This document shows, piece after piece, positions 23,601 to 59,805 of a DNA stretch of 64,000 bases. Position 1 is the stretch's first letter. Each line of letters begins with the position of its first letter. This DNA is from Bolinopsis microptera (Eukaryota > Ctenophora > Tentaculata > Lobata > Bolinopsidae), in NCBI RefSeq assembly GCF_026151205.1, contig NC_087075.1, forward strand, positions 10,152,303 through 10,216,302. Reading direction: 5' to 3'. A program made the position numbers and the translations under genes. Below the pieces are notes generated by a model. That model made no database searches. It was not told the DNA's origin and saw only the letters and a list, made by a program, of their open reading frames with translations.

Positions 23601-26600
23601 AATAGCATAATATAAGATTTAAAACAGCTTTTTGGCCTCGGCTCCATCATTTGTTCATTTGCTATCGACCATGTTGATAATTTTTCAAAACGAATAAAAA
23701 AGGATGTTGAGTGAATTCACTCCTGAATAGGTCCTTTATGGCAATCTAATTCCGTGTTGATGATACATATATAGGTTTTGATCTTGCTAAGTTAGATTTC
23801 TGCCCAAATGCTCTCAGCGATCGCATAGTTTGTCCCTAGTTGTTGTCGTCTGTTTTATATTTCGATGTTTATTATTTATTGTATCATTACCGTTGACATA
23901 AACAAATACAATCTACACACCTGACAATACTCTGACAACTACGAAAACACGACAAAAATGTCCGTTGTCATGACAACACTCTGGATATCTTGTAACATTT
24001 TACATCGGCTGAACCAAAAATTTGGACAAATTTAGTGGAGGAATTTGAAGTGTGAACATGTGTGTGTGTGTGAAGCTGACCGGCGCGCGGCGCAGTGTAT
24101 TGTCATGGCAACAAACATAATCACACCCTCTCATGTAATAGTACTGACACTACCTTGCGTTTCAGCACGCCGGAAAGTGACCCGGTGTTGACTCACCAGC
24201 TTCTCGGCCTCAATCCCGCTGTGGAGACCGACAAGATCGACTATCCTGCCCAGACCGATGTTACCGGGCCTATGAGGATCAGAAGGATAAAACGACCCAT
24301 TCCTGCAGGTTCGTAACCAGTTTCACCCCTTCATTTCACCCTTCATTTTCATATACATTCGCGGGTGTGAACGACCGAAATTCTGGGAAATGCCAATTTT
24401 TTCTAAAGTTAAAAAAGACGGAGTCAGCCGATGTTTATGTTATGATTTATCCGCAGGTCCCACCTACCCCGTGCATTTGTGGCAGTTTATTTTGGAACTG
24501 TTGGGCGATCACGCGTGTAAGGACATCATCGCATGGACTGGCAATGATCTGGAGTTCAAGGTCCTGAACTCTCGGGAACTGGCTAGGAAGTGGGGAAAAC
24601 GGAAAAACAAACCGCGAATGAACTTCGACAAGTTGTCACGTGCCATGCGGTATTACTACGAGAAAAACATTATCAAGCACATTCCCGGACAGAGACTGGT
24701 CTATCGGTTCTGTAGGAATCCTGATGATATCGTGTTTACTCAGTTGTTAAAAACTGCAATGGGAACTTTGCCTCCAGAGGCCAGATTAACGGCCCCTGTC
24801 ACAACAAATCCTTGCTTTGCTTCACCTGTAGACCAAACTCCGACCATACCCGACGGGTACTTTAACCCACAAAACTCTCAGACAATGACCCACCCTTTTA
24901 CTGTGAAGCAGATTGTGTACTGAGCGTGCGCGTGAGGAGTGTTGAAGTTGCGTGAGAAATTGCGTGAGAATTTGCGTGATATGGCGCGGGAAGGCGCGTG
25001 AGGGATCACGCAAATCTCCCAACAGAGTTATTTTATTGTGCAGTGTTTTGACAATTTCAACCAACTTTTAATTCTGAGCGGGAATGAGGAGGGGAAATAA
25101 TTTATACTCGTGATATATCAGAGTTAATTTACACTAAAAGCCTTGTAAAATATGATAAGGTCATTTGGATAACAGTTTTAGTTTATTTATTGATTTGTAA
25201 CATGGATTTACTTATTTATTCCATTTTCAGCCATAAAACAGATTAACAATAATGTCGCCTTGACACTAACTCATCTAAGGCTATGTCTAATATCCGACCG
25301 ATGTTTTAAACTTTTTAACCTAAAAAAATGGGTAGGCATGTTTTAAGGAAATTGGGAGGGCAAATATATTTTACCAGATTTCTATGGTCGCCCCCTGAAA
25401 CCCTTGTGGTGCTACTTTTTACCTGTTTAAGGGGCTGAGCCCCAGATTGAAATGTCAAAGTATTTTTACTAAATCGTTAATTATCACTCCACTTATTTAC
25501 ATATGATTTGTCAATATTATGTAAAAATTTATACAAAGTGCATATAATCTATTGAGAATGCAGAGAAATTGTTCGTTAGTTTTATGAGAATATCCCAGTT
25601 GTATGCATGCGCAGAGGCCAAAAGGACATAACTTTTAGAAAAGCTTGATGTAAAATAAGTAACATAGAAAATAGGGAAGCATATCTCGAGTTTCGTGTCC
25701 GTATAGGGCAATCTTTAAATGTGTCCCTTTCGGCCTCTGGTTTTTGGTTTAAGTTGTTGAAATATTAACTTTAATAGCTTCGCGATTGTATGGTTTAATT
25801 GATAATCAGGATAAAGATAAAAATTGAGGGATTTTCAATGTCCACATTATGTTATTTTCTTCTTCAAATCTTTCATTGATTTCTAGAAATCAAATGTATC
25901 ATTTTGAAATATTACAAAACAGAAAATCCAACAAAATTTATTAAAAAATACGCGAACTCATTAATTTTGAACTTGCCATCACCCTCTCCACAATCATGAA
26001 GATACCACAATACAATTCTTAAATTCGTAAATATCTATTATAACTAACATTATCCTTACAAATTTTCGTAAATGTTTCTATAATCTATATGACTCCACCT
26101 CAATCTTACCAAAGTTTCCCCTTAGGTCCCTCCTACCCAGTTCACCTGTGGCAGTTCATCTTGGAACTACTTGGAGATCACAGCTGCAAGGACTTCATCG
26201 CCTGGACGGGAAATGACCTGGAGTTCAAAGTTATTAACAGCAGAGAGCTTGCACGAAGGTGGGGAAGGAGGAAAAACAACGCCAGAATGAACTTCGACAA
26301 GTTGTCACGTGCCATGCGGTATTACTACGAGAAAAACATTATCAAGCACATTCCCGGACAGAGACTGGTGTACAGGTATTGCAGGAATCCTGATGATATC
26401 GTGTTCACCCAGCTTCTGAAGACTGCCATGGGAACCCTGCCCCCAGAGACCAGACTAATAGCCCCCGTGACCACTAACCCCCACTTCAACAACACTCACT
26501 CTCTGGGAGGGGGGTTTAATCCCCTTTCTAACGGAGCCCCCCGCTCTCTCTCCTTCAGCTCAGCCAGCTCGTCCTGTTCCTCCCTCCTACAACAGTCCTC

Positions 26601-26952
26601 ACCTCTCCAGACCCACAGTAGTCTTCAACACTCCTCTCTGGGTAACCTCTCCAATGGCAATATGTCCAATATATCTCTGGGTTCAGGATCTCTCGCCACA
26701 GGATCTCTCGGCTCAGGATCTTTAGGAACCAGCAATTTGGGGTCAGGAAGCCTGGGGTCAGGAAATGTGGGCTCCGGAACTAATGGACAGACTTCCGGCC
26801 TGGTATCCTCCACTGGGCTCCTGTCAGGACCCCGACCTTCAGACAACAACATGACTGAATATATGTTCAGTGCAAACTGTCTCACCCAGGTGCAGCAACA
26901 TCTCCAGTCCAACGGAGAGGGTGTCAAACAACATCATATGATGGCTAGTTAG
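2534..26952 (+). CDS. ETS-family transcription factor (spliced, two ETS-domain isoforms)
   Basis: A sequence-specific nuclear DNA-binding protein of the ETS family. I rebuilt it from exons 2534-2636, 3287-3345, 3498-3597, 11664-11759, 19475-19588, 19718-19904, 22916-23158, 23335-23415, 24166-24308 and then either 24457-24923 or 26126-26952. Every junction is AG/GT and keeps phase, giving about 530 or 650 aa. The N-terminal two thirds is polar and low in complexity, with acidic-flanked lysines such as VKTE and IKQE that resemble sumoylation sites. No Pointed/SAM domain is visible. The ETS domain shows [18 protein letters not shown] or ARKWGKRKN, and [19 protein letters not shown]. By eye the domain is closest to ETS1/2, but its end (PGQRLVYR) recalls ELF/TEL, and the whole domain on one exon after a phase-1 junction resembles ERG/FLI. 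Subfamily is left open. An in-frame ATG at 2468 could be the start; I chose 2534 because an acceptor-like CAG lies between them. Confidence 0.88.
3145..3190. repeat. Perfect 46-bp palindrome
   Basis: A perfect inverted repeat centred on TTTGCAAA; both arms read CACGAAATTTCACGATTTC. It sits in intron 1 about 100 bp before the exon 2 acceptor and abuts a second hairpin. It could form a cruciform or an RNA hairpin near the splice site. Confidence 0.95.
3189..3238. repeat. Second hairpin, 20-bp arms
   Basis: Arms TGGCTGCTCTAACCATTGAC and its exact reverse complement flank a 10-base loop. It shares its first bases with the end of the preceding palindrome. The two form a back-to-back pair just upstream of exon 2. 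Confidence 0.95.
3287..3345 (+). CDS. ETS gene coding exon 2
   Basis: 59 nt between acceptor TTTCAG and donor GTAATT; phase 1 in, phase 0 out. It encodes [24 protein letters not shown] and LKSEP are lysine-rich, with a sumoylation-like look. Confidence 0.75.
3498..3597 (+). CDS. ETS gene coding exon 3
   Basis: 100 nt between acceptor ATTTCAG and donor GTAAGTC, phase 0 in and phase 1 out. It encodes a charged stretch beginning [11 protein letters not shown] and ending VELKDEIEG. The open frame joins exons 2 and 4 without a stop. Confidence 0.78.
3624..3700. repeat. AT-rich microsatellite
   Basis: Repeated TATAT/ATATAA runs including partly self-complementary segments, directly after the exon 3 donor. 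Confidence 0.85.
4644..4734. repeat. 46-bp tandem duplication
   Basis: Two adjacent copies of a unit that contains CTTAGTATAAATGTTATGTG, differing by a couple of bases. Confidence 0.85.
8500..8940. promoter_or_regulatory. CACGTG-rich candidate enhancer or alternative promoter
   Basis: Six CACGTG E-boxes lie at 8570, 8708, 8746, 8787, 8892 and 8909, with CCAAT boxes near 8518, 8547 and 8764. A TATA-like TATATTTATA sits at about 8624. The block is clearly more GC-rich than the surrounding intron. CACGTG is the site for MYC/MAX, USF, TFE-type bHLH-ZIP factors. Whether this is an enhancer or an internal promoter cannot be told from sequence. Confidence 0.5.
9915..10206 (-). mobile_element. tRNA-Gly-derived SINE
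   Basis: On the - strand the segment 10206-10130 reads like a tRNA. It has an A-box (GGTGGTGTAGTGGTAA), an anticodon loop CTCCCAA giving CCC (Gly), and a B-box (GGGTTCAAATCC). It is followed by about 215 bp of unrelated body, ending near 9915. tRNA head plus non-tRNA body is the SINE plan, with an internal Pol III promoter. I did not find clear target-site duplications. It could instead be an isolated tRNA pseudogene; a functional tRNA is unlikely because the acceptor stem does not pair well. Confidence 0.62.
10970..11120. promoter_or_regulatory. CCAAT/CACGTG block in ETS intron 3
   Basis: CACGTG motifs at about 11015 and 11059 alternate with CCAAT boxes in both orientations (ATTGG at about 11039, CCAAT at about 11077). 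This resembles the 8.5-kb block and lies about 0.55 kb before exon 4. Regulatory function is inference. Confidence 0.4.
11664..11759 (+). CDS. ETS gene coding exon 4
   Basis: 96 nt between acceptor TTGTTGCAG and donor GACG|GTTGGT, which is weaker than consensus. Phase 1 to phase 1. The encoded segment starts [17 protein letters not shown] and ends NIGFDG. Because both sides are phase 1, skipping this exon would keep the frame. Confidence 0.68.
12870..12960. repeat. Diverged tandem duplication in intron 4
   Basis: Two adjacent copies of a unit built around CAGTCATTC, a CAATCAGCAAGCA-like stretch and AACAAGTA, with several differences. Confidence 0.7.
14470..14526. repeat. Short three-copy tandem repeat
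   Basis: Three successive units of about 20-28 bp of the form ATGACCGAGTGTGACATA, the first more diverged. Confidence 0.75.
19475..19588 (+). CDS. ETS gene coding exon 5
   Basis: 114 nt, acceptor ATTTCAG, donor TCAG|GTTATT, phase 1 in and out. It encodes a serine/asparagine-rich stretch including [16 protein letters not shown], then a short amphipathic piece [15 protein letters not shown]. Symmetrical phase means it is skippable in frame. Confidence 0.8.
19718..19904 (+). CDS. ETS gene coding exon 6
   Basis: 187 nt, acceptor CCACCAG, donor TATC|GTAAGT, phase 1 in and phase 2 out. It encodes two adjacent [13 protein letters not shown] motifs, which fit the sumoylation consensus (hydrophobic-K-x-E), followed by a polar linker. 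Such sites are common in ETS repressor or regulatory regions; the role here is inference. Confidence 0.82.
20651..20714. repeat. 32-bp exact tandem duplication
   Basis: Two adjacent copies of a unit containing AGTACATTATACAGTG and TATAACACACGTAAT. Confidence 0.92.
21060..21450. promoter_or_regulatory. CACGTG/CCAAT cluster upstream of internal first exon
   Basis: CACGTG at 21106, 21145, 21240, 21283 and 21295 is interleaved with CCAAT-type motifs (ATTGG near 21028 and 21059; CCAAT near 21219, 21259, 21353 and 21394). It lies 0.5-0.9 kb before the TATA box at 21920. The arrangement suits a proximal enhancer of an internal promoter. Confidence 0.5.
21920..21927 (+). promoter_or_regulatory. TATA box of candidate internal ETS promoter
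   Basis: TATAAAAG in a GC-richer context, with the CACGTG cluster upstream and the ATG of the alternative first exon 0.68 kb downstream. Transcription would be expected to start near 21950. Confidence 0.45.
22603..22793 (+). CDS. ETS gene alternative first coding exon
   Basis: Starts [17 protein letters not shown] and stays open for 63 codons to the donor AAGTG|GTGAGG. It ends in phase 2, exactly the phase needed to join exon 7 at 22916. It therefore offers a short isoform lacking exons 1-6, driven from a promoter near 21.9 kb. The alternative is an internal exon, but I see no good acceptor before it. The predicted N-terminus is cysteine-containing and unlike the long isoform. Confidence 0.6.
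22916..23158 (+). CDS. ETS gene coding exon 7
   Basis: 243 nt, acceptor CCCCCAG, donor ACAG|GTACGA, phase 2 in and out. It encodes a proline-, asparagine-, tyrosine- and serine-rich region including [14 protein letters not shown], typical of an intrinsically disordered activation or regulatory segment. Both the long and the internal first exon can splice to it. Confidence 0.85.
23335..23415 (+). CDS. ETS gene coding exon 8
   Basis: 81 nt, acceptor ATTTTCAG, donor CACT|GTAAGT, phase 2 in and out. Encodes [18 protein letters not shown] followed by IKQEKYPAL, which contains another IKQE sumoylation-like site. Confidence 0.83.
24166..24308 (+). CDS. ETS gene coding exon 9
   Basis: 143 nt, acceptor GCGTTTCAG, donor GCAG|GTTCGT, phase 2 in and phase 1 out. 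It encodes a stretch beginning [15 protein letters not shown] and ending with the basic run [13 protein letters not shown] directly before the ETS domain. That basic run could contribute to nuclear import or DNA affinity. Confidence 0.85.
24457..24923 (+). CDS. ETS gene terminal exon A (ETS domain, short tail)
   Basis: Acceptor ATCCGCAG, phase 1 in, TGA stop at 24921-24923. It carries the complete ETS winged helix-turn-helix: [45 protein letters not shown] and [16 protein letters not shown]. The two arginines of RAMRYYY in recognition helix 3 contact the GGA core in this family. After the domain comes [17 protein letters not shown] and a short proline/threonine-rich tail ending VKQIVY. It is interchangeable with exon B: same entry phase and closely matching sequence. 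Confidence 0.93.
24924..26125 (+). other. 3' UTR of exon A and intron before exon B
   Basis: Directly after the stop comes a run of GCGTGAG-like words (24926-25010). The rest is AT-rich with no coding exon. No AATAAA close to the exon A stop was evident. Confidence 0.5.
26126..26952 (+). CDS. ETS gene terminal exon B (ETS domain, long S/G-rich tail)
   Basis: Acceptor TTTCCCCTTAG, phase 1 in, TAG stop at 26950-26952. The ETS domain matches exon A closely but differs at scattered positions, for example DHSCKDFI for [20 protein letters not shown] for [12 protein letters not shown], and VYRYC for VYRFC. The nucleotide sequence over the core (about 26287-26368) is almost identical to exon A. The tail is about 140 residues, serine- and glycine-rich with repeats of the type LGSGSL, ending in a glutamine/histidine-rich segment. 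No stop or frame damage is seen, so this looks like a working alternative exon rather than a pseudo-exon. Confidence 0.92.
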
Positions 26953-28256: not shown

Positions 28257-29160
28257 ATAGTTGTGGACACAACAAGAAAATTGAGAATAATCTTGTGCGA
28301 GGGTAGGGACCCAGATGTCGTTTCTAACCCAAATAAACTTTAAGGAGGTTTCTCATCAGTAGCCGCACCTCCTTACTCGGTTTCTGAACTGGAATTCTAT
28401 GGGCTTCCAGACGGCCAGACCGAGTATTACCATCCCATCCTTCTAGAGTTCATCACAAGTAGCACCCACCTTGAAGATCTTTGACACCCAGACACACCCC
28501 ATTGGCGAACAAACTTTGGATATAATCTTACATGCTCCCGAAGGAATCCCTGGTTTATGGTCTTTCTCATCGTCACCAGCACTTTCACTAGGTCACCAGC
28601 TCTTTCACTGAAGTCATCAGCCCTTTCACTGAAGTCATCAGATGTGACTCTGATCAACGGTATAGTTGTGGACACAACAAGAAAATTGAGAATAATCTTG
28701 TGCGAGGGTAGGGACCCAGATGTCGTTTCTAACCCAAATAAACTTTAAGGAGGTTTCTCATCAGTAGCCGCACCTCCTTACTCGGTTTCTGAACTGGAAT
28801 TCTATGGGCTTCCAGACGGCCAGACCGAGTATTACCATCCCATCCTTCTAGAGTTCATCACAAGTAGCACCCACCTTGAAGATCTTTGACACCCAGACAC
28901 ACCCCATTGGCGAACAAACTTTGGATATAATCTTACATGCTCCCGAAGGAATCCCTGGTTTATGGTCTTTCTCATCGTCACCAGCACTTTCACTAGGTCA
29001 CCAGCTCTTTCACTGAAGTCATCAGCCCTTTCACTGAAGTCATCAGATGTGACTCTGATCAACGGTATAGTTGTGGACACAACAAGAAAATTGAGAATAA
29101 TCTTGTGCGAGGGTAGGGACCCAGATGTCGTTTCTAACCCAAATAAACTTTAAGGAGGTT
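28257..29160 (+). repeat. 405-bp tandem monomers at LINE 5' end
   Basis: Two complete units (28257-28661 and 28662-29066) that read as identical, plus the first 94 bp of a third (29067-29160). Each holds an internal short duplication TTTCACTGAAGTCATCAG. The third unit breaks off exactly where the LINE reading frame opens. This resembles the promoter monomers known at the 5' end of mouse L1. The open frames inside each unit on both strands look incidental. Confidence 0.9.
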
Positions 29161-29302: not shown

Positions 29303-31858
29303 ATGGACTGCCTCCTTAATCAACCTGTGGATACGGCAAACGAAGCTGCACAGCTTAATGAAGACTTAGTCGCAACATACCACAATCTTGCGAATTCTGT
29401 TACTACGACCAAAAGCGGCAAACGCACCAGCAAGAAAAAATGGTTTGACCGAAGCTGCAAACAGGCTAAAAGGGAAGCCAACAGAGCTGACAGAAATGCT
29501 AACAGTAACCCACACAGCAACTTCCTACGTGACCAGCACTTTCTCAGAAAAAAGGAGTACCGAAAAATCAAGAGGATGAAAAAGGGGAAATTTCTGTACG
29601 AGATGAACCAGAAGATAAACGAATGTGGTGAGGTTAACTGGGCAGCGCTCAAACGGCTATCTGACCAGCACAAAGATGAGGAACCCTTCGACATTTACGA
29701 TCTTCTCCTTTTTCACAAATTCTTCAATGATCTCTACAATCGAAAGTGTGGCGTGAACAATCACTCCAAGGATGATGGCACTCCTACTCCTACGTCCAAT
29801 GATTCGCAGCCTATCAAGGAACTGGTCGATGAACTGAATCGCGACTTTACCTTACAGGAGATCAAAGATGCGACCAAAAAACTCCAAAACAATAAGAGTG
29901 TGTCCGATGACCTGATATCCAACGAGATGTTGAAAAACTCCAATGAGACACTTCAACTCGTCGTGGTAAAACTCTTTAATGCCTGCCTCCAGCATGGGAC
30001 TTACCCCTGGAACAACTCGATCACAACTCCCCTCCATAAAAAGGGTGACCGGCAAAACCCTGATAACTATCGTGCTATTACTATTGGGAGCTGTCTCGGC
30101 AAACTCTTCTCGAACCTTCTCCTTAAACGGCTAATCGAATTTAGAGAAATAGCCTGTCCGGACCGACCGTATCAACTTGGATTCAGGAGGGGAGCCCAAT
30201 GTAACGACCACTTACTCACCTTGAATACCATTATTGAGAAATACACCAAGAAAGAGAAGAAGCGACTTTTCGCCTGCTTTGTCGACTACCGCAAGGCTTT
30301 CGATAGCGTATGCAGGGAAGCACTCCTGTTCAAGCTGGGCAACATGGGCATAACAGGCAAATTCTTCGATTGCATCAGCCACATGTACAATAACTCTTCA
30401 ACCCGAGTCAAGCTGATTCAAAAGCTATCCGCAGCCATCGACGTCACCATCGGCACAGAACAAGGACATCCAATGTCCCCCGAGCTCTTCAAACTCTATA
30501 TCCACGAGCTCTCTATCAGACTTGAACAAATCGAGGAATTGGATGTACCTTTATTAAACGGTGTAAAAGTAAGTCACCTCCTATGGGCAGATGACCTGGT
30601 ACTCTTAGCGCTGGATGCGGGCAGCTTACAGAAACTGCTCAATTGCTTGCATGACTATGCTGAAAAGTGGGAGCTGTCTGTGAATATCAACAAAACCAGC
30701 GTGATGGTCTTTAACACAAGCTCACGAATACTGAAATGTGCTTACGGCTTCAAACTAGGCAACTTGGACATCGCACCTGTCAGAAAATACTGCTATCTAG
30801 GAATCCAATTCTCCCTGAACGGTTCCTTCAAGCAAGCAATCGATGAACTTAGGAAGAAAGCTCTTCGCTCATTCTTCTCTCTGAGACGAACTATTGACAC
30901 GAGAGCCCTTACCACTAGCACGATGCTAAAACTCATTGATAGCCTAGTCAAGCCAGTGGCCACATATGGATGCCCTATTTGGCTGCCATCAACCAACATC
31001 GTGAAAGCCATCCTCTCGAAAAATCAAGAAGCGAGTCTTCCCAAAGCAGCAGCAAAAGATGCTCTTGAAACTACTCACTTGAAAATTCTTAAATGGATAT
31101 TGGGTGTCCACAAAAAGGCAAATAACAACTTCTGCTACGGAGATACAGGTAGAACCCCCTGGACAGTAACCGTCCTCCCTCAATGTATTGCCTACTTCTG
31201 TAGAACATCACAAGCGGTAGTAGGTAACGTGAATACCCTCTTGCACCATACATTTCAGGAACAGAAACAGCTGAACCTTACCTGGTATGATGCATGGTCT
31301 ACTATCATCAAGACGAGCACTGTCGCTAAGCCACACCTACCCCACACCCTTGCGGCTCGTGAACACATACACGAAACATTTGTTAACCACTGGAAGAAGG
31401 ATCTTCACAACCAGCCTAAAATGTCATTCTACACTGCGGTCAAAGCTGAGTTTGGTGAAGAACTGTACTTACAGCTCCCATGCAGGGTCAAAAGAGCTAA
31501 CATTGCGAAACTTCGATCTAGCAGTCACGATCTGAGAATTGAGAAAGGTCGCTACACTGGAGATCGCTACAACACAGCACTGAAAACATGTCGCTTTTGC
31601 TGCTCGTCAGACACCGACGTCATGCGGTTCTTCGAAGAACTACCATTCTTTGAAACACCTATCCTTGAAACCGAGGACCACGTCATAAATGAATGCCCCA
31701 GCTACAACTCCCTCCGGTCCAACCTCTCAGACAACCTTAAAAGCCTCATAATGCTCAAAGAATATGGGGCCATCATGAACTCATTCCATGTAACTGAATT
31801 TGGAAAGTACCTCACAGAATCCTTTCACCTTCGACATCCTCCTGAAAAGAAGTCCTAG
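29303..31858 (+). CDS. LINE reverse transcriptase ORF (non-LTR retrotransposon)
   Basis: An uninterrupted 851-codon ORF; the frame is open from 29147, so translation could begin earlier. It starts in a basic linker (KKWFDRSCKQAKREANR) of the kind that joins endonuclease to RT in APE-type LINEs; no endonuclease is seen upstream. RT motifs are in order: HKKGDRQNPDNYRAI (about residue 246), the catalytic aspartate in VDYRKAFD (327-334), GTEQGHPMSP where most relatives have a QG-x-PLSP form, and WADD (428-431) where F/YADD is usual. A thumb region with YCYLGIQFS follows. The C-terminus has a CCHC-like cluster (CRFC ... EDHVINEC). Clade (CR1, L2, RTE or jockey-like) is unresolved. An intact frame implies a young copy, 5'-truncated or lacking its endonuclease. 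Confidence 0.92.
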   Translation: MDCLLNQPVDTANEAAQLNEDLVATYHNLANSVTTTKSGKRTSKKKWFDRSCKQAKREANRADRNANSNPHSNFLRDQHFLRKKEYRKIKRMKKGKFLYEMNQKINECGEVNWAALKRLSDQHKDEEPFDIYDLLLFHKFFNDLYNRKCGVNNHSKDDGTPTPTSNDSQPIKELVDELNRDFTLQEIKDATKKLQNNKSVSDDLISNEMLKNSNETLQLVVVKLFNACLQHGTYPWNNSITTPLHKKGDRQNPDNYRAITIGSCLGKLFSNLLLKRLIEFREIACPDRPYQLGFRRGAQCNDHLLTLNTIIEKYTKKEKKRLFACFVDYRKAFDSVCREALLFKLGNMGITGKFFDCISHMYNNSSTRVKLIQKLSAAIDVTIGTEQGHPMSPELFKLYIHELSIRLEQIEELDVPLLNGVKVSHLLWADDLVLLALDAGSLQKLLNCLHDYAEKWELSVNINKTSVMVFNTSSRILKCAYGFKLGNLDIAPVRKYCYLGIQFSLNGSFKQAIDELRKKALRSFFSLRRTIDTRALTTSTMLKLIDSLVKPVATYGCPIWLPSTNIVKAILSKNQEASLPKAAAKDALETTHLKILKWILGVHKKANNNFCYGDTGRTPWTVTVLPQCIAYFCRTSQAVVGNVNTLLHHTFQEQKQLNLTWYDAWSTIIKTSTVAKPHLPHTLAAREHIHETFVNHWKKDLHNQPKMSFYTAVKAEFGEELYLQLPCRVKRANIAKLRSSSHDLRIEKGRYTGDRYNTALKTCRFCCSSDTDVMRFFEELPFFETPILETEDHVINECPSYNSLRSNLSDNLKSLIMLKEYGAIMNSFHVTEFGKYLTESFHLRHPPEKKS

Positions 31859-53997: not shown

Positions 53998-54213
53998 GTA
54001 AAATCTAAAAAACAATTAAATGTTTCCAAATGTGAGCAAACACATAACTTAACTAAAAGAAATTATTGCTACTTACATTCTATACTATTTCATAATCATC
54101 AATGGCACGCATAAGGAAATAAAACCCACAATCAACCGATAACTTGACTGGCTATTCCCATTTAAAAGAGCGTATTTTGAATTCCTAAACAACATTAAAA
54201 CAATCAATTTCAG
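53998..54213 (+). other. 5' UTR intron of the armadillo-XKR gene
   Basis: Donor GGCAG|GTAAAA at 53998 and acceptor ATTTCAG ending at 54213 bracket a 216-bp intron 30 bp before the ATG. It implies a non-coding first exon ending at 53997 and argues that this locus is a transcribed gene rather than a processed copy. Confidence 0.55.
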
Positions 54214-54243: not shown

Positions 54244-57200
54244 ATGACAGAATCTGATCAAGTAGGTGACATTTTCCCTGTAAATTGCAAGCTGTTAACT
54301 AAAGAAGAAATAACTTGTGTGGCGGATAAACTGCGTGCTTATATACCAGATGATGAAGCTGATTTGGTTGTTCCCGAAGTCATAGAGAGGATACTTGGTA
54401 CGGAGTTCTGTGCTAATTTTAGAGACTTCTACACCGATAATAACGAGGTTCAGTTCAGACGGGACATGACATTCTTGACAAGAAGAATCGGTTTTCATGG
54501 GACGCAGCAAGATCGGAAATGTCTTGTAGATAATGGGATTTCCCAGTTCATACTGGAAAACTGTAGAGAATCTGACGACTCAGACACAATACTGAACATG
54601 GTAACAGTTCTCAGAGACATATCACGTAAAGATAACATGGTACATCTACCAAGTCTTGTAAAAGATGGGTTGTGCAGCAAGATAAAACAATTACTTGTTA
54701 AGTGGAGAAGTAATGATGATATTGTGAAGAGGTTGCTCCGCATGATAGGAATAATTTGCTCTGATGGGACGCAACAAGATCGACAATCTATAGTGGATAG
54801 TAGAATCTCCCAGTTCATACTGGAAAACTATACAGAATCAGACGACTCATACACAATACTGAAAATGGTAACAGTTCTCAGAGACATATCATGTAAAGAT
54901 AACATGGTACATCTACCAAGTCTTGTAAAAGATGGGGTGTACAGCAAGATAAAAGAATTACTTGTTAAGTGGAGAAGTAATGATGATATTGTGAAGAGGT
55001 TGCTCTACATGATAGCAATAATTTGCTCTGGTGGGACACAACAAGATCGACAATCTATAGTGGATAGTAGAATCTCCCAGTTCATACTGGAAAACTATAC
55101 AGAATCAGACGACTCATACACAATACTGAACATGGTAACATTTCTCAGTGACATATCACGTAAAGATAACATGGTACATCTACCAAGTCTTGTAAAAGAT
55201 GGGTTGTGCAGCAAGATAAAAGAATTACTTGTTAAGTGGAGAAGTAATGATGATATTGTGAAGAGGTTGCTCCACATGATAGGAATAATTTGCTCTGGTG
55301 GGACACAACAAGATCGACAATCTATAGTGGATAGTAGAATCTCCCAGTTCATACTGGAAAACTATACAGAATCAGACGACTCATACACAATACTGAACAT
55401 GGTAACAGTTCTCAGAGACATATCACGTAAAGATAACATGGTACATCTACCAAGTCTTGTAAAAGATGGGTTGTGCAGCAAGATAAAAGAATTACTTGTT
55501 AAGTGGAGAAGTAATGATGATATTGTGAAGAGGTTGCTCCACATGATAGGAATAATTTGCTCTGGTGGGACACAACAAGATCGACAATCTATAGTGGATA
55601 GTAGAATCTCCCAGTTCATACTGGAAAACTATACAGAATCTGACGACTCAGACACAATACTGAACATGGTAACAGTTCTCAGAGACATATCACGTAAAGA
55701 TAACATGGTACATCTACCAAGTCTTGTAAAAGATGGGTTGTGCAGCAAGATAAAAGAATTACTTGTTAAGTGGAGAAGTAATGATGATATTGTGAAGAGG
55801 TTGCTCCACATGATAGGAATAATTTGCTCTGGTGGGACACAACAAGATCGACAATCTATAGTGGATAGTAGAATCTCCCAGTTCATACTGGAAAACTGTA
55901 GAGAATCTGACGACTCAGACACAATACTGAACATGGTAACATTTCTCAGAGACATATCACGTAAAGATAACATGGTACACCTGCCAAGTCTTGTAAAAGA
56001 TGGGTTGTGCAGCAAGATAAAAGAATTACTTGTTAAGTGGAGAAGTAATGATGATATTGTGAAGAGGTTACTCCGCATGATAGGAATAATTTGCTCTGAT
56101 GGGACGCAACAAGATCGACAATCTATAGTGGATAGTAGAATCTCCCAGTTCATACTGGAAAACTATACAGAATTAGACGACTCATACACAATATTTTGTG
56201 TAGTACAACTTCTCAGAATCATATCATGCGAAGATAACTTGGTACATCTACCAAGTCTTGTAAAAGATGGGTTGTACAGCAAGATAAAATATTTACTTGT
56301 TAAGTGGAGAAGTAATGATGATATTGTGGAGACGTTGTTCGACATGATAGTAAGTATTGTTTCTCATGAGACACCTGATTCCAAAGACTGTGGGGAGAGT
56401 CATGCAGAAAAATTAGTCAATACTTTAAGAAGCAGCTCGGATATTGTCAGAGACATTATTAAATCTAGTACTACAAGAAGTAGTGGAGTAATCGTGCTAG
56501 CAGCGATACTCCTTCATAAATATCTTAACCCCGTGAAGAGCTCAGAACTGTTAGAAATACTTGTACCTATAAACAATTTTACCTCACAAGAGATAAGCAA
56601 GTTAGCTGACAATATGAAAGAAATACCTGCAAGTGAGAAAGATTTAGAAAAACAAGTTATCAGTGAACTAGTAACAATCAACTTTATGGAAAAGTTCTGT
56701 GAGTTGTATGAGGATAACACTGAACTACAGTATCGGAGGGACCTTACCTATGTCATCAGTAGAGTAGCGGAAGAAGGGAATGATAAAGATAAAAGATTAC
56801 TGGTCAGGAAAGGCATCGTTAAACTCTTAATTACAGAGTGTAAACAATGCACTGATAAAGAGGTAGTGCGCAATATCACTGCTACTTTAAGGAGTATAGC
56901 TTATCCTAACAACACTAACAGCCTCTACCTCGCTAAACACGGTGTTATCTTGTTAATACCAGCACTGATAGAGACCTGGAGCGGAGCAGATAATAATATA
57001 GTGAGTAACGTGTTGGGGATGTTACAGAACATAACAAGTAGTGTTGATATCAAGGAACAGATAGCTAGTGTTACCAGTGAACAGGGTATTAATATACCTG
57101 TACTACTGACTGACTTATTAAACAATTGTGCAGATAAGGTAGTGTTGGAGAGGACTGTGGGTTGTATTAAAAATATGCTGCTTGACAGCTTGATATTACA

Positions 57201-58905
57201 CGAACATTTCTCTACACAACAGTTTATAGACGCTTGTTTTAGGTTGTTAAAATCTGATATACTATCAGAGGCATGTCGATATAGAATATTGGAAAGTATT
57301 GTTTTACAGCTCACGTGTAACAACCGTCAGTTGGTCACCAAGTTACTAGTAAAACATGTTGATTATATGAGGGAGTTATCTGTACTGGGTAACAATGAAA
57401 GGTTATCTAAAATTGCTGCTGGTATCATAAACAAATATTTTAGCTGCGTGGAAAAGAAGCACAAGTGTCGAATGATAAGCAGTTTTGTGTTGCTAAGTAT
57501 AATGAAATTTGTGTTGCTGTATATCGTTGATATTGTCTTAGATATAAAAATAGGTCTAGATTCAATATTTAACGATAGTGAACATATACGTTACGAAGGA
57601 TACGGGATATTAGTGTTTTCTATTATTCCGCTGTTTTACATTAACTATCAGTCGTTATTACGGTATTATAAGTGTTGTTTTGGACTATGTACTGTTGATC
57701 CAGTCATCTCATTACAAGGTAGTTCTCGGGGACAATATCTTAAATTCTTGGTACCGTGGAAATGTGACTCTCTTAAGAACTTTTTGATGAATGTTATAAC
57801 CGTGTTTCAGCTCCACCCGGTCATCACTGCATTTGAGTTGGCTCTACACAGCAGGCAGAAGTTGAGTCAACTGATCGATAAGAAGTTTCAATTTGCCAGG
57901 TTGACCGTACAGGAGAAGATTTTAGAAAATGTACCGTGTACATTAATAAAAATAATCATACTCTACAAAACGTTTGTTCCAAAGGAGGGACTGAGTCAAG
58001 AAAACTACTTGACGTATTGTTCGACAGTGTACGGCATCGTCACTTTAACTTACAAAATATCTGGGTTTGAAAAGTTATGTCGTGCAGCTGATGGTAAATG
58101 TAGTACCCTCACCGGGATACAGACGAATCTTGTTTTCATAGCAAAATTTACTGCTGTATTATCTCGCATCATGATGCGCCTAATTCTGTACACCTTATCA
58201 GCGTATATCAACAAGACTTGGATATTTGCTGCTGGTATTGGACTACACATGATTATTACACTGATAATTCACTTATCAGCTTATCACAAGAGATTTGATG
58301 CATATGAATGCGAATCCACTCAGAGGAAGTGTGTAACATGGGACTACTTATTGGAAGAGGGTGGTGTCAAGAACTCAACATTAGTCACGTTAGGACGATT
58401 TGTGCTGATACTGTGCTTATCGTGGAGTGAAGGCTTCATTGTCAATCTAAGACATCCCATAGATTTACTGTCTGGTAGTACACCTCACACAGATCACCTG
58501 AGATCACCACTGTACTTTTTCAGCATCTACACGTTTCATCTCGTTGAAGTTATCAGTGTGACAGTGTTAGCAAGTATCGGCGTGCTAGAAGCTAATAGTG
58601 ATTGGATAAAGTACCTGGGCTATGTATCAGTAGCACTGTATCTGATATATGGTGCTCTGCTCATTATTTACTTCACAGTACTAAACCCAGACAAGAAAGG
58701 AAAGCCTCTATCGGCGAACGTAAACACTCGATTTAAACACATGGGACACACTATACAAGTTAGTAAAGTGGAACAATACTGTCATGTCACACCTAAAAAG
58801 GAGATGAAGATAAACGGTAAAAAGATACTTCTCTCAACGGACTTGAACTTCCGACTTCAAGTCATGAAACCTTGTCTCTACTGTGTGCTAGGAATAAAAA
58901 CATGA
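54244..58905 (+). CDS. Armadillo-repeat / XK-related (XKR-like) membrane fusion protein
   Basis: 1553 codons in one exon. Residues 1-85 form a helical module (KEEITCVADKLRAYIPDD, FYTDNNEVQFRRDM). Residues 86-708 are seven 89-residue armadillo-like units. Residues about 765-1060 are a second armadillo-like region whose start (SQEISKLADNMKEI, LYEDNTELQYRRDL) mirrors the N-terminus. From about 1078 a multipass membrane domain of eight to ten helices follows. It carries XK-family hallmarks: D1096 and D1100 in VDIVLD of helix 1, FQLHP at 1188-1192, and EKILENVPCTLIKIII from 1224, the place of E-x-x-PQL-like motifs. XKR proteins (CED-8, Xkr8) scramble phospholipids in the plasma membrane; function here is inference. 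The XKR domain lies C-terminal, so the repeats would face the cytosol. No signal peptide. Confidence 0.78.
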   Translation: MTESDQVGDIFPVNCKLLTKEEITCVADKLRAYIPDDEADLVVPEVIERILGTEFCANFRDFYTDNNEVQFRRDMTFLTRRIGFHGTQQDRKCLVDNGISQFILENCRESDDSDTILNMVTVLRDISRKDNMVHLPSLVKDGLCSKIKQLLVKWRSNDDIVKRLLRMIGIICSDGTQQDRQSIVDSRISQFILENYTESDDSYTILKMVTVLRDISCKDNMVHLPSLVKDGVYSKIKELLVKWRSNDDIVKRLLYMIAIICSGGTQQDRQSIVDSRISQFILENYTESDDSYTILNMVTFLSDISRKDNMVHLPSLVKDGLCSKIKELLVKWRSNDDIVKRLLHMIGIICSGGTQQDRQSIVDSRISQFILENYTESDDSYTILNMVTVLRDISRKDNMVHLPSLVKDGLCSKIKELLVKWRSNDDIVKRLLHMIGIICSGGTQQDRQSIVDSRISQFILENYTESDDSDTILNMVTVLRDISRKDNMVHLPSLVKDGLCSKIKELLVKWRSNDDIVKRLLHMIGIICSGGTQQDRQSIVDSRISQFILENCRESDDSDTILNMVTFLRDISRKDNMVHLPSLVKDGLCSKIKELLVKWRSNDDIVKRLLRMIGIICSDGTQQDRQSIVDSRISQFILENYTELDDSYTIFCVVQLLRIISCEDNLVHLPSLVKDGLYSKIKYLLVKWRSNDDIVETLFDMIVSIVSHETPDSKDCGESHAEKLVNTLRSSSDIVRDIIKSSTTRSSGVIVLAAILLHKYLNPVKSSELLEILVPINNFTSQEISKLADNMKEIPASEKDLEKQVISELVTINFMEKFCELYEDNTELQYRRDLTYVISRVAEEGNDKDKRLLVRKGIVKLLITECKQCTDKEVVRNITATLRSIAYPNNTNSLYLAKHGVILLIPALIETWSGADNNIVSNVLGMLQNITSSVDIKEQIASVTSEQGINIPVLLTDLLNNCADKVVLERTVGCIKNMLLDSLILHEHFSTQQFIDACFRLLKSDILSEACRYRILESIVLQLTCNNRQLVTKLLVKHVDYMRELSVLGNNERLSKIAAGIINKYFSCVEKKHKCRMISSFVLLSIMKFVLLYIVDIVLDIKIGLDSIFNDSEHIRYEGYGILVFSIIPLFYINYQSLLRYYKCCFGLCTVDPVISLQGSSRGQYLKFLVPWKCDSLKNFLMNVITVFQLHPVITAFELALHSRQKLSQLIDKKFQFARLTVQEKILENVPCTLIKIIILYKTFVPKEGLSQENYLTYCSTVYGIVTLTYKISGFEKLCRAADGKCSTLTGIQTNLVFIAKFTAVLSRIMMRLILYTLSAYINKTWIFAAGIGLHMIITLIIHLSAYHKRFDAYECESTQRKCVTWDYLLEEGGVKNSTLVTLGRFVLILCLSWSEGFIVNLRHPIDLLSGSTPHTDHLRSPLYFFSIYTFHLVEVISVTVLASIGVLEANSDWIKYLGYVSVALYLIYGALLIIYFTVLNPDKKGKPLSANVNTRFKHMGHTIQVSKVEQYCHVTPKKEMKINGKKILLSTDLNFRLQVMKPCLYCVLGIKT
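54499..56367 (+). repeat. Seven in-frame 267-bp coding repeats
   Basis: Units start at 54499, 54766, 55033, 55300, 55567, 55834 and 56101, each 267 bp. Units 2-6 are nearly identical at the DNA level; units 1 and 7 are more diverged. Typical unit words are GTQQDRQSIVDSRISQ, DNMVHLPSLVKDG and LLVKWRSNDDIVKRLL. The pattern implies recent unequal exchange or gene conversion, with the edge units older. Confidence 0.97.
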
Positions 58906-58930
58906 GAAGATCGAGTCAGAGGAACTAAAC

Positions 58931-59401
58931 ATGTGTTCATTGAAAGGGTTCATGAGGGGAATTAAAGACTGTTTTACCCACCAGTTTAAAAGACAGCTGG
59001 ACTTGAGCGGCGAAGACAGTGATATCATTGATCAGCTCCGTTTTCAGAATCGTAGTGAAATAGAGTGGCTGATGAAAAAAGTTACAAACTACCACAAAGT
59101 GCACAGTCATCTGTTATACTTCTTCCCTGGTATTGATTTCATTGTAGAGGACAACACTGACTTTATCAATACTTGCGAAGAACTTGGTGTGTTTCGCAGT
59201 ATTGACGCTATCACTGATGATGAGCTGAGTCCTGGTGTTGTAGCTAATTGTAGTAAGGTGGAAAAGAAAATAAAAACTTTGTACGGTACTTTAGTTTTAA
59301 GGAAACTGATGAAATTTCCGACACACAGTTTAAAGAATTTGATAGACTCTGTGAAGATTATTTCTTTCTACAAGAAGCTGCGTGGGAAAAAAAATGTCTG
59401 A
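58931..59401 (+). CDS. ORF following the XKR gene, probable continuation (frame 2)
   Basis: 156 codons starting 25 bp after the XKR stop. The frame is already open from 58896, so the ATG may not be the true start. It encodes MCSLKGFMRGIKDCF, DIIDQLRFQNRSEIEWLM and YFFPGIDFIVEDNTDF. From about 59275 the coding-like signal moves to another frame (next entry), and the last 40 codons here look non-genuine. I do not recognise the domain. Either a separate small gene or the C-terminal part of the XKR fusion protein displaced by a frame change. Confidence 0.55.
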   Translation: MCSLKGFMRGIKDCFTHQFKRQLDLSGEDSDIIDQLRFQNRSEIEWLMKKVTNYHKVHSHLLYFFPGIDFIVEDNTDFINTCEELGVFRSIDAITDDELSPGVVANCSKVEKKIKTLYGTLVLRKLMKFPTHSLKNLIDSVKIISFYKKLRGKKNV

Positions 59402-59805
59402 TTTGGTGCACAATAGCTCCCACTAAGATTCTCACTAAATACCATCATTCTAAATGGGACACCACTCAGTGTAAACAAGAAATCGAAAAATGGATTGAAT
59501 CGAAGGAGAAGAAAAAAACTGTGAGTAAACACGCAACATTCCACTTTCACGGTAAACATGTTGCAAGTTCAGAAGGAGGGCCACTTGAAAGAGATCATAA
59601 TAACAACGAGGGTAACCCTGAAAGCAACAACAACACAGGAGATCCCATAACACAGATGATTGTTGACAAACACTCATCATTCTACATTTATGGGGAAACT
59701 ACTAGACAACAGTTGTGGGTCACTAGAAGATGGAGGGACTTGAGAAACTGTTGTCGTATTAACACGGCGTATCAGCCTGTTCAAGTGGAACTGGAAAATA
59801 TTTGA
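59270..59805 (+). CDS. C-terminal coding segment (frame 1), probable continuation
   Basis: Open from about 59256 to TGA at 59803-59805, in the same frame as the big XKR ORF. It reads NFVRYFSFKETDEISDTQF, EDYFFLQEAAWEKK, a lysine/glutamate-rich stretch (EIEKWIESKEKKKT), a polar linker rich in N and G, then QQLWVTRRWRDLRNCC. It looks coding and would extend the upstream protein by up to 300 residues. Family unknown. Confidence 0.5.

Follow-up and report, generated by a model that had tools for sequence, protein, structure and literature searches.

The XK-related (XKR) family consists of membrane proteins with eight membrane helices and two partly inserted helices, arranged in two repeats. To our knowledge, its known members are about 400–700 residues long and carry no armadillo (ARM) repeats. 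Importin-α and designed ARM proteins, on the other side of the comparison drawn here, are soluble. Rat XKR9 is a 43 kDa protein whose C-terminus fills a cytosolic pocket (PMC8298096), and the C-terminal tails of both XKR8 and XKR9 are described as acting as a plug (PMC10938166, PMC8298096). Acidic residues, mainly on TM1 and TM3, are named as a hallmark of the family (PMC8298096). In Xkr8, scrambling is reported to depend on six charged residues located in helices 1, 4 and 5, and inter-helix salt bridges are described as conserved across the family (PMC8500837). XKR activation beyond caspase cleavage is incompletely understood.

Here we analyzed a window of 64,000 nucleotides of Bolinopsis microptera (contig NC_087075.1, positions 10,152,303–10,216,302, forward strand; assembly GCF_026151205.1). 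One of its genes encodes, with near certainty as judged from homology, an ARM solenoid in front of an XKR-type domain. The original prediction of a single uninterrupted reading frame agrees with the ORF list and its translation, which run from an ATG at 54244 to a stop at 58905 on the + strand (1553 residues). The features of the gene are as follows, with the basis of each in brackets.

53998–54213, +, candidate 5′ UTR intron with GT...AG ends by eye, shortly ahead of the start codon (inference from sequence)
54244–58905, +, whole open frame, ARM solenoid and XK-related-like membrane domain, 1553 aa (ORF list)
54244–54498, +, N-terminal cap, residues 1–85 (homology to other places of the genome)
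54499–56367, +, seven 89-aa units, residues 86–708, two ARM repeats each (Tandem Repeats Finder, protein repeats, register of the ARM alignment)
56368–57450, +, diverged ARM repeats, residues 709–1069, kept in paralogues (PF00514 at 846–886, homology)
57451–58698, +, XK-related-like membrane domain, residues 1070–1485 (homology via bridging relatives)
58699–58905, +, first part of the C-terminal tail, in frame, with the stop (comparison with paralogue tails)
58928–59284, +, second part of the tail, in a shifted frame, with a separate 156-aa ORF at 58931–59401 (37.6–37.7% to the C9:310k and C2:10.94M tails)
59257–59802, +, third part of the tail, again in frame with the main ORF (35–37% to three paralogue tails, the pieces starting at 59257–59311)

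Elsewhere in the window, 2.2 perfect tandem copies of a 405-bp unit (100% matches, 28257–29160) are directly followed by an ORF of 851 residues that is reverse-transcriptase-like by eye (29303–31858), and the two together look like part of a LINE-type element. Two neighboring ORFs (24390–24923 and 26089–26952) encode closely similar ETS-type DNA-binding domains, also by eye, and a TC dinucleotide run occupies 1664–2015 (176.5 copies, 98% matches).

Armadillo repeats of the N-terminal part

The N-terminal part had been described as armadillo-like repeats, and this stands, given its matches to Pfam Arm (PF00514) and to designed ARM proteins, with the correction that each repeating unit comprises two ARM repeats and that residues 86–708 are a recent tandem amplification. 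Tandem Repeats Finder reported a 267-bp unit in 6.9 copies at 54498–56350 (95% matches), and the protein contains seven units of exactly 89 residues, starting at residues 86, 175, 264, 353, 442, 531 and 620, each with two ARM repeats when aligned with designed ARM proteins. Sequence differences among the units gave pN/pS = 0.48 within units 1–6 and approximately 0.73 when distinct changes were counted across all seven. Eight further places in the genome are matched, at 38–47%, by query stretches lying inside residues 4–173.

At a cut-off of 20.6 bits, PF00514 was recovered at residues 846–886, with 25.0 bits for the N-terminal part alone and 21.5 bits for the whole protein; at the same Pfam cut-off, Arm was without a match in four relatives scanned singly (L010, L018, L021 and L001). 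A PDB sequence search with the window protein matched designed ARM proteins (best 1.9e-8). As scores may be inflated by tandem sequence, a separate profile was made of the non-tandem part, using six sequences (residues 790–1069 of the window protein and their counterparts). This profile found 56 PDB chains, with the designed helical repeat protein 5h7c at the top (1.7e-13), followed by designed ARM (4d4e, 1e-10) and importin-α (from 8e-4). TPR_CCP1_N, RAD24_helical and DUF2811 (the last with the N-terminal part only) also exceeded their Pfam cut-offs on the tandem units, and we read all three as helical-repeat look-alikes and not as identities; TPR_CCP1_N and RAD24_helical were rejected despite high scores, because the sequence fits the ARM register and its hits in the PDB consist of ARM or designed helical repeats.

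The XK-related-like membrane domain

The C-terminal part had been assigned to the XKR family from motifs, and these are all present, namely the paired Asp of helix 1 (D1096 and D1100), FQLHP and EKILENVP. The assignment itself holds by way of bridging relatives, but not by a direct match to the XKR family of Pfam (PF09815). The profile search that had been suggested for the C-terminal part returned no PF09815 match at E ≤ 10, under filters that remove the bulk of weak hits, and the window locus is absent from the 13 places matched by PF09815 in a scan of the genome. Among nine aligned relatives, L001 was the sole one with a direct match.

Taken at its word, the first refuting case named with the prediction thus arose, but it is overturned by two bridges. 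L001 aligns with window residues 986–1485 (BLASTP 4e-39) and matches PF09815 over positions 6–337 of 337 (1.8e-17). L003, whose 459-aa frame contains no solenoid, aligns with the membrane domain of the window protein (BLASTP 7e-23) and lies above the PF09815 cut-off in the genome scan; as a protein, it reached 2.4e-5 and 23.9 bits over positions 1–332 of 337, just below the cut-off of 24.8. Through L001 and L003, the domain is, by sequence comparison, homologous to PF09815 members. A third relative, L008, aligns with the window family over the second half of the domain with an hhalign probability of 97.1%; its frame has no Pfam match, and an adjoining exon does match PF09815 in the genome scan. 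Alignment A1 against L007, a PF09815 member, gave an hhalign probability of only 7.1%, and the negative control, another multipass ORF of the window with no relation to this family, gave 0.2%. Profiles of the window family did not reach XKR4, XKR8 or XKR9 among solved structures, and neither did L001, L003 or L007 match a solved XKR structure; weak similarity to XKR4 (0.016) was seen for a 74-aa exon belonging to L002, another XKR locus. Four XKR-type frames lacking a solenoid were also aligned (A3), but this alignment was too poor in quality for use.

Seven hydropathy stretches exceed the threshold between residues 1074 and 1483. The residues D1096, D1100, E1228, R1308 and E1435 are invariant in 9/9 relatives, and E1224 is kept in 8/9; the acidic ones of the N-terminal half (D1096, D1100, E1224 and E1228) agree with the family hallmark of buried acidic residues on TM1 and TM3. 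We paired these charged residues with Xkr8 positions by pattern, and on this assumption R1308 and E1435 are the likely partners of the Xkr8 salt bridge R214–D295, while the bridge R98–D129 appears, in this register, to be absent from the window family. The spacing of four in D1096/D1100 and E1224/E1228 is that of D26/D30 and E137/E141 in Xkr8 (numbers from PMC8500837).

Related loci in the same genome

The genome (264.65 Mb, 232 contigs) was searched with the membrane part as query, yielding at least 33 matches. Nine places, including the window, have a stop-free XKR domain that shares one frame with upstream sequence:

C4 (window), C5:2.68M, C2:10.94M, C2:10.98M, C9:154k, C9:310k, C3:5.53M, C9:3.89M and C9:3.90M

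Counted from the first Met, the nine frames span 761 to 1614 residues, and that of C2:10.98M starts only ~150 residues ahead of the XKR domain. The upstream part is ARM by homology in seven of the nine, which were found by the ARM part of the window protein. C9:3.89M and C9:3.90M were not found in this way, and their ~300–450 upstream residues are helical by eye only. The same domain order, which it had been proposed to look for in related animals, was thus met with at other loci of this genome, and the gene belongs to an expanded family. Chance does not account for the arrangement, since other loci show the same order in one frame.

A comparison of the window gene with its nearest relative, at C5, gave dN/dS = 0.305 in the ARM part (residues 790–1040) and 0.128 in the XKR domain, rough values because synonymous sites are near saturation. 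Over the joint (residues 1041–1110, 70 codons), the two differ at 24% of nonsynonymous and 93% of synonymous sites, and this conservation of codons across the joint indicates one coding sequence running through it. The predicted fusion of ARM and XKR parts in one frame is therefore upheld by nine loci, seven of them with ARM by homology, and by the conserved joint. Architecture, homology, copy number and constraint are all observed at these loci. Several copies lack an intact XKR domain: C13:10769310–10772741 (C13:10.77M) stops after the ARM part, C9:72390–76688, with L044, is an ARM copy followed by a decayed XKR remnant, and an ARM copy at C3:16.9M is broken.

A second family of the same genome combines ankyrin repeats with an XKR-like domain. 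A locus on C11 matches PF09815 with 28.7 bits in the genome scan and 23.1 bits, below the cut-off, as a protein, and carries ankyrin repeats ahead of its membrane part. The latter finds 18 places including itself (on C11, C13, C2 and C3), as well as two short fragments on C12; in 13 of the 18, a single match covers no fewer than 450 of the 521 positions, and two of these 13 contain stops. Pfam ankyrin repeats lie in the XKR frame in five of seven examined places (L031, L033, L035, L037 and L043, the last being C11:12.08M), the L035 frame ending within the XKR part. In the remaining two (L032 and L034), an ankyrin-like stretch, recognized by eye, is in a separate upstream frame.

The membrane domains of the ARM and ankyrin types are homologous by profile comparison (99.6%, 8e-25, 387 columns), with the homology beginning at a common His-x-Cys motif. 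A common ancestry of the two solenoids found no support, as hhalign of the extended alignments starts at the membrane domain and leaves the solenoids unmatched. A tree was built from nine ARM, six ankyrin and three solenoid-free rows, leaving out L002, L004–L006, L035 and those of the 18 ankyrin-type places that were not fetched. The ankyrin type forms one group (100/100) and the ARM type one group with weak support (69/76). Since the solenoid-free rows have long branches, only these two groupings were used.

Proposed mechanism, alternatives and comparison with known systems

Together, these data lead us to a best explanation that we hold at about even confidence as a whole, namely that the window gene encodes a membrane protein in which an ARM solenoid, fused ahead of an XKR scramblase-type domain, controls that domain. 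Solenoid-controlled scrambling as the mechanism we put a little lower, at somewhat short of an even chance. The XKR domain would be the effector, providing a route for phospholipids through the bilayer by itself or together with a lipid-transfer partner. The ARM solenoid, which we take to be on the cytosolic side from the orientation of the termini in known XKR structures, would keep the XKR domain switched off or positioned until binding of a partner or ligand. One polypeptide might in this way do the job of the caspase-cleaved tails or partner proteins of mammalian XKRs. A caspase-like motif, D..D[GSANT], occurs at three places in the window protein, all within the ARM array, and none was found in its XKR part or tail; among eight relatives, the C3 protein has one in its tail, and C9:310k and C9:3.89M have two and one, respectively, before the domain. 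As the XKR part and tail of the window protein are free of this motif, we propose the solenoid, and not a caspase-cut tail, as the candidate control element. By extension, the family members are probably solenoid-regulated scramblases, and the two solenoid families suggest lipid scramblases with putative built-in sensors. Such control may, as originally suggested, serve cell death or engulfment. Scrambling and ligand control by the window protein are inferred here.

A possible alternative, to which we give distinctly less weight, is that the XKR-like domain does not scramble on its own, and anchors the ARM scaffold or recruits a bridge-like lipid-transfer protein, comparable to XK and VPS13A. 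A cytosolic loop of XK is described as binding the PH domain of VPS13A (PMC9436381), and XK is reported to scramble jointly with VPS13A (PMC13178662). Three of the nine human XKRs (XKR4, XKR8 and XKR9) are named as found to scramble (PMC8298096), and the window sequence is distant from the solved XKRs. A mere anchor, however, would not need the charged membrane residues, whose invariance in 9/9 relatives opposes this reading and speaks for our best explanation.

The state of the window copy raises a different question, because the tail is broken by frame changes and the copy may accordingly be truncated. Measured from the NPDK motif in the three paralogues examined, the tail is 373 residues long at C2:10.94M, 371 at C9:310k and 237 at C5. 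The window holds its tail in three pieces, at 58684–58893 in frame, at 58928–59284 in a shifted frame and at 59257–59802 in the original frame, and the stop at 58905 cuts off what the paralogues retain. This split reflects either an assembly error or a recent truncation. It is conceivable, though again we would not expect it, that the family works while its member in the window is decaying or dead, which would be compatible with our best explanation for the family. The two frame changes in a conserved tail fit such decay, as do copies that are plainly broken (C9:211k, C5:9.46M and C9:76.3k). The 1553 open codons and the XKR dN/dS to C5 of 0.128 speak against it, and errors in the assembly may have produced both frame changes.

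Copy number, clustering and changing array lengths make a recognition role attractive, and such a role would be a special case of solenoid-controlled scrambling: the arrays would act as receptors for varied ligands, from pathogens or self, opening the scramblase for an engulfment mark or cell death. We consider this unlikely, and its extension to both solenoid families as one receptor class equally so. Many copies exist, several of them clustered on C9, C2 and C13; the number of ARM blocks, by motif count, differs between paralogues, and the tandem array of the window is recent. In a pairwise comparison of C9:154k and C9:310k, dN/dS was 1.18 in the ARM part and 0.47 in the XKR domain. Against this stand weak results from tests for faster ARM evolution and groove-face variation. 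Across four copies and 125 ARM codons, the rates of the ARM and XKR parts did not differ significantly (29:8 vs 58:32, p 0.15; p 0.24 with the tail added to XKR), and faster ARM evolution, as expected of a recognition part, was dropped as not significant. Differences between the repeats fell on the groove helix in 18/36 vs 12/53 positions across all seven units (p 0.007), and units 1–6 showed no such enrichment (8/36 vs 10/53, p 0.45), so that groove-face variation was set aside as a signal carried by unit 7. In its boldest form, which we again consider unlikely, the proposal would be of one-piece sensor-scramblases whose variable ARM or ankyrin solenoids sense cytosolic ligands and gate the XKR domain directly, as an arm of cell death or innate recognition that does not depend on caspase cleavage. 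Finally, that two adjacent genes, one ARM and one XKR, were read as one, the refuting case named with the original prediction, is highly improbable: ARM copies without an intact XKR do occur (C13:10.77M; C9:72–77k with a decayed XKR), but nine loci have an unbroken frame across the joint, whose conserved codons are under constraint.

The XK-related family is already known, and its ARM- or ankyrin-fused architecture seems new. In a literature search, no title or abstract among the matches listed described either fusion; predicted proteomes of related organisms may show such a fusion already. A covalently attached solenoid, occurring with two repeat types, makes control of scrambling by a partner or ligand directly testable, and the window family illustrates that many scramblase-like genes escape Pfam.

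The window protein shares with XK, XKR4, XKR8, XKR9 and CED-8 a homologous domain, the paired Asp of helix 1 and the charged membrane residues; unlike these, it has ~1070 residues, mostly ARM repeats, ahead of the domain, and its paralogues, where examined (three), carry a tail of 237–373 residues after NPDK. As in XKR8 and XKR9, a cytosolic extension would lie beside the scramblase domain and could likewise serve as a plug. Control of XKR8 and XKR9 is ascribed to a short, caspase-cleaved C-terminal peptide (PMC8298096, PMC10938166), whereas the window protein has a long N-terminal solenoid. In the XK–VPS13A pair, as described in PMC9436381, an XK-type domain cooperates with a large cytosolic protein, similar to what is proposed here; those are separate proteins, with a lipid-transfer bridge as the partner, while the window protein would be one chain with an ARM solenoid. 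Importin-α and designed ARM proteins resemble it in repeat sequence and register, and none of the matched chains has a named membrane domain, whereas the window protein has one. Its closest counterparts in architecture are the ankyrin-XKR proteins of the same genome, in which a solenoid likewise precedes a homologous XKR-like domain in one frame, with ankyrin repeats in the place where the window protein has ARM.
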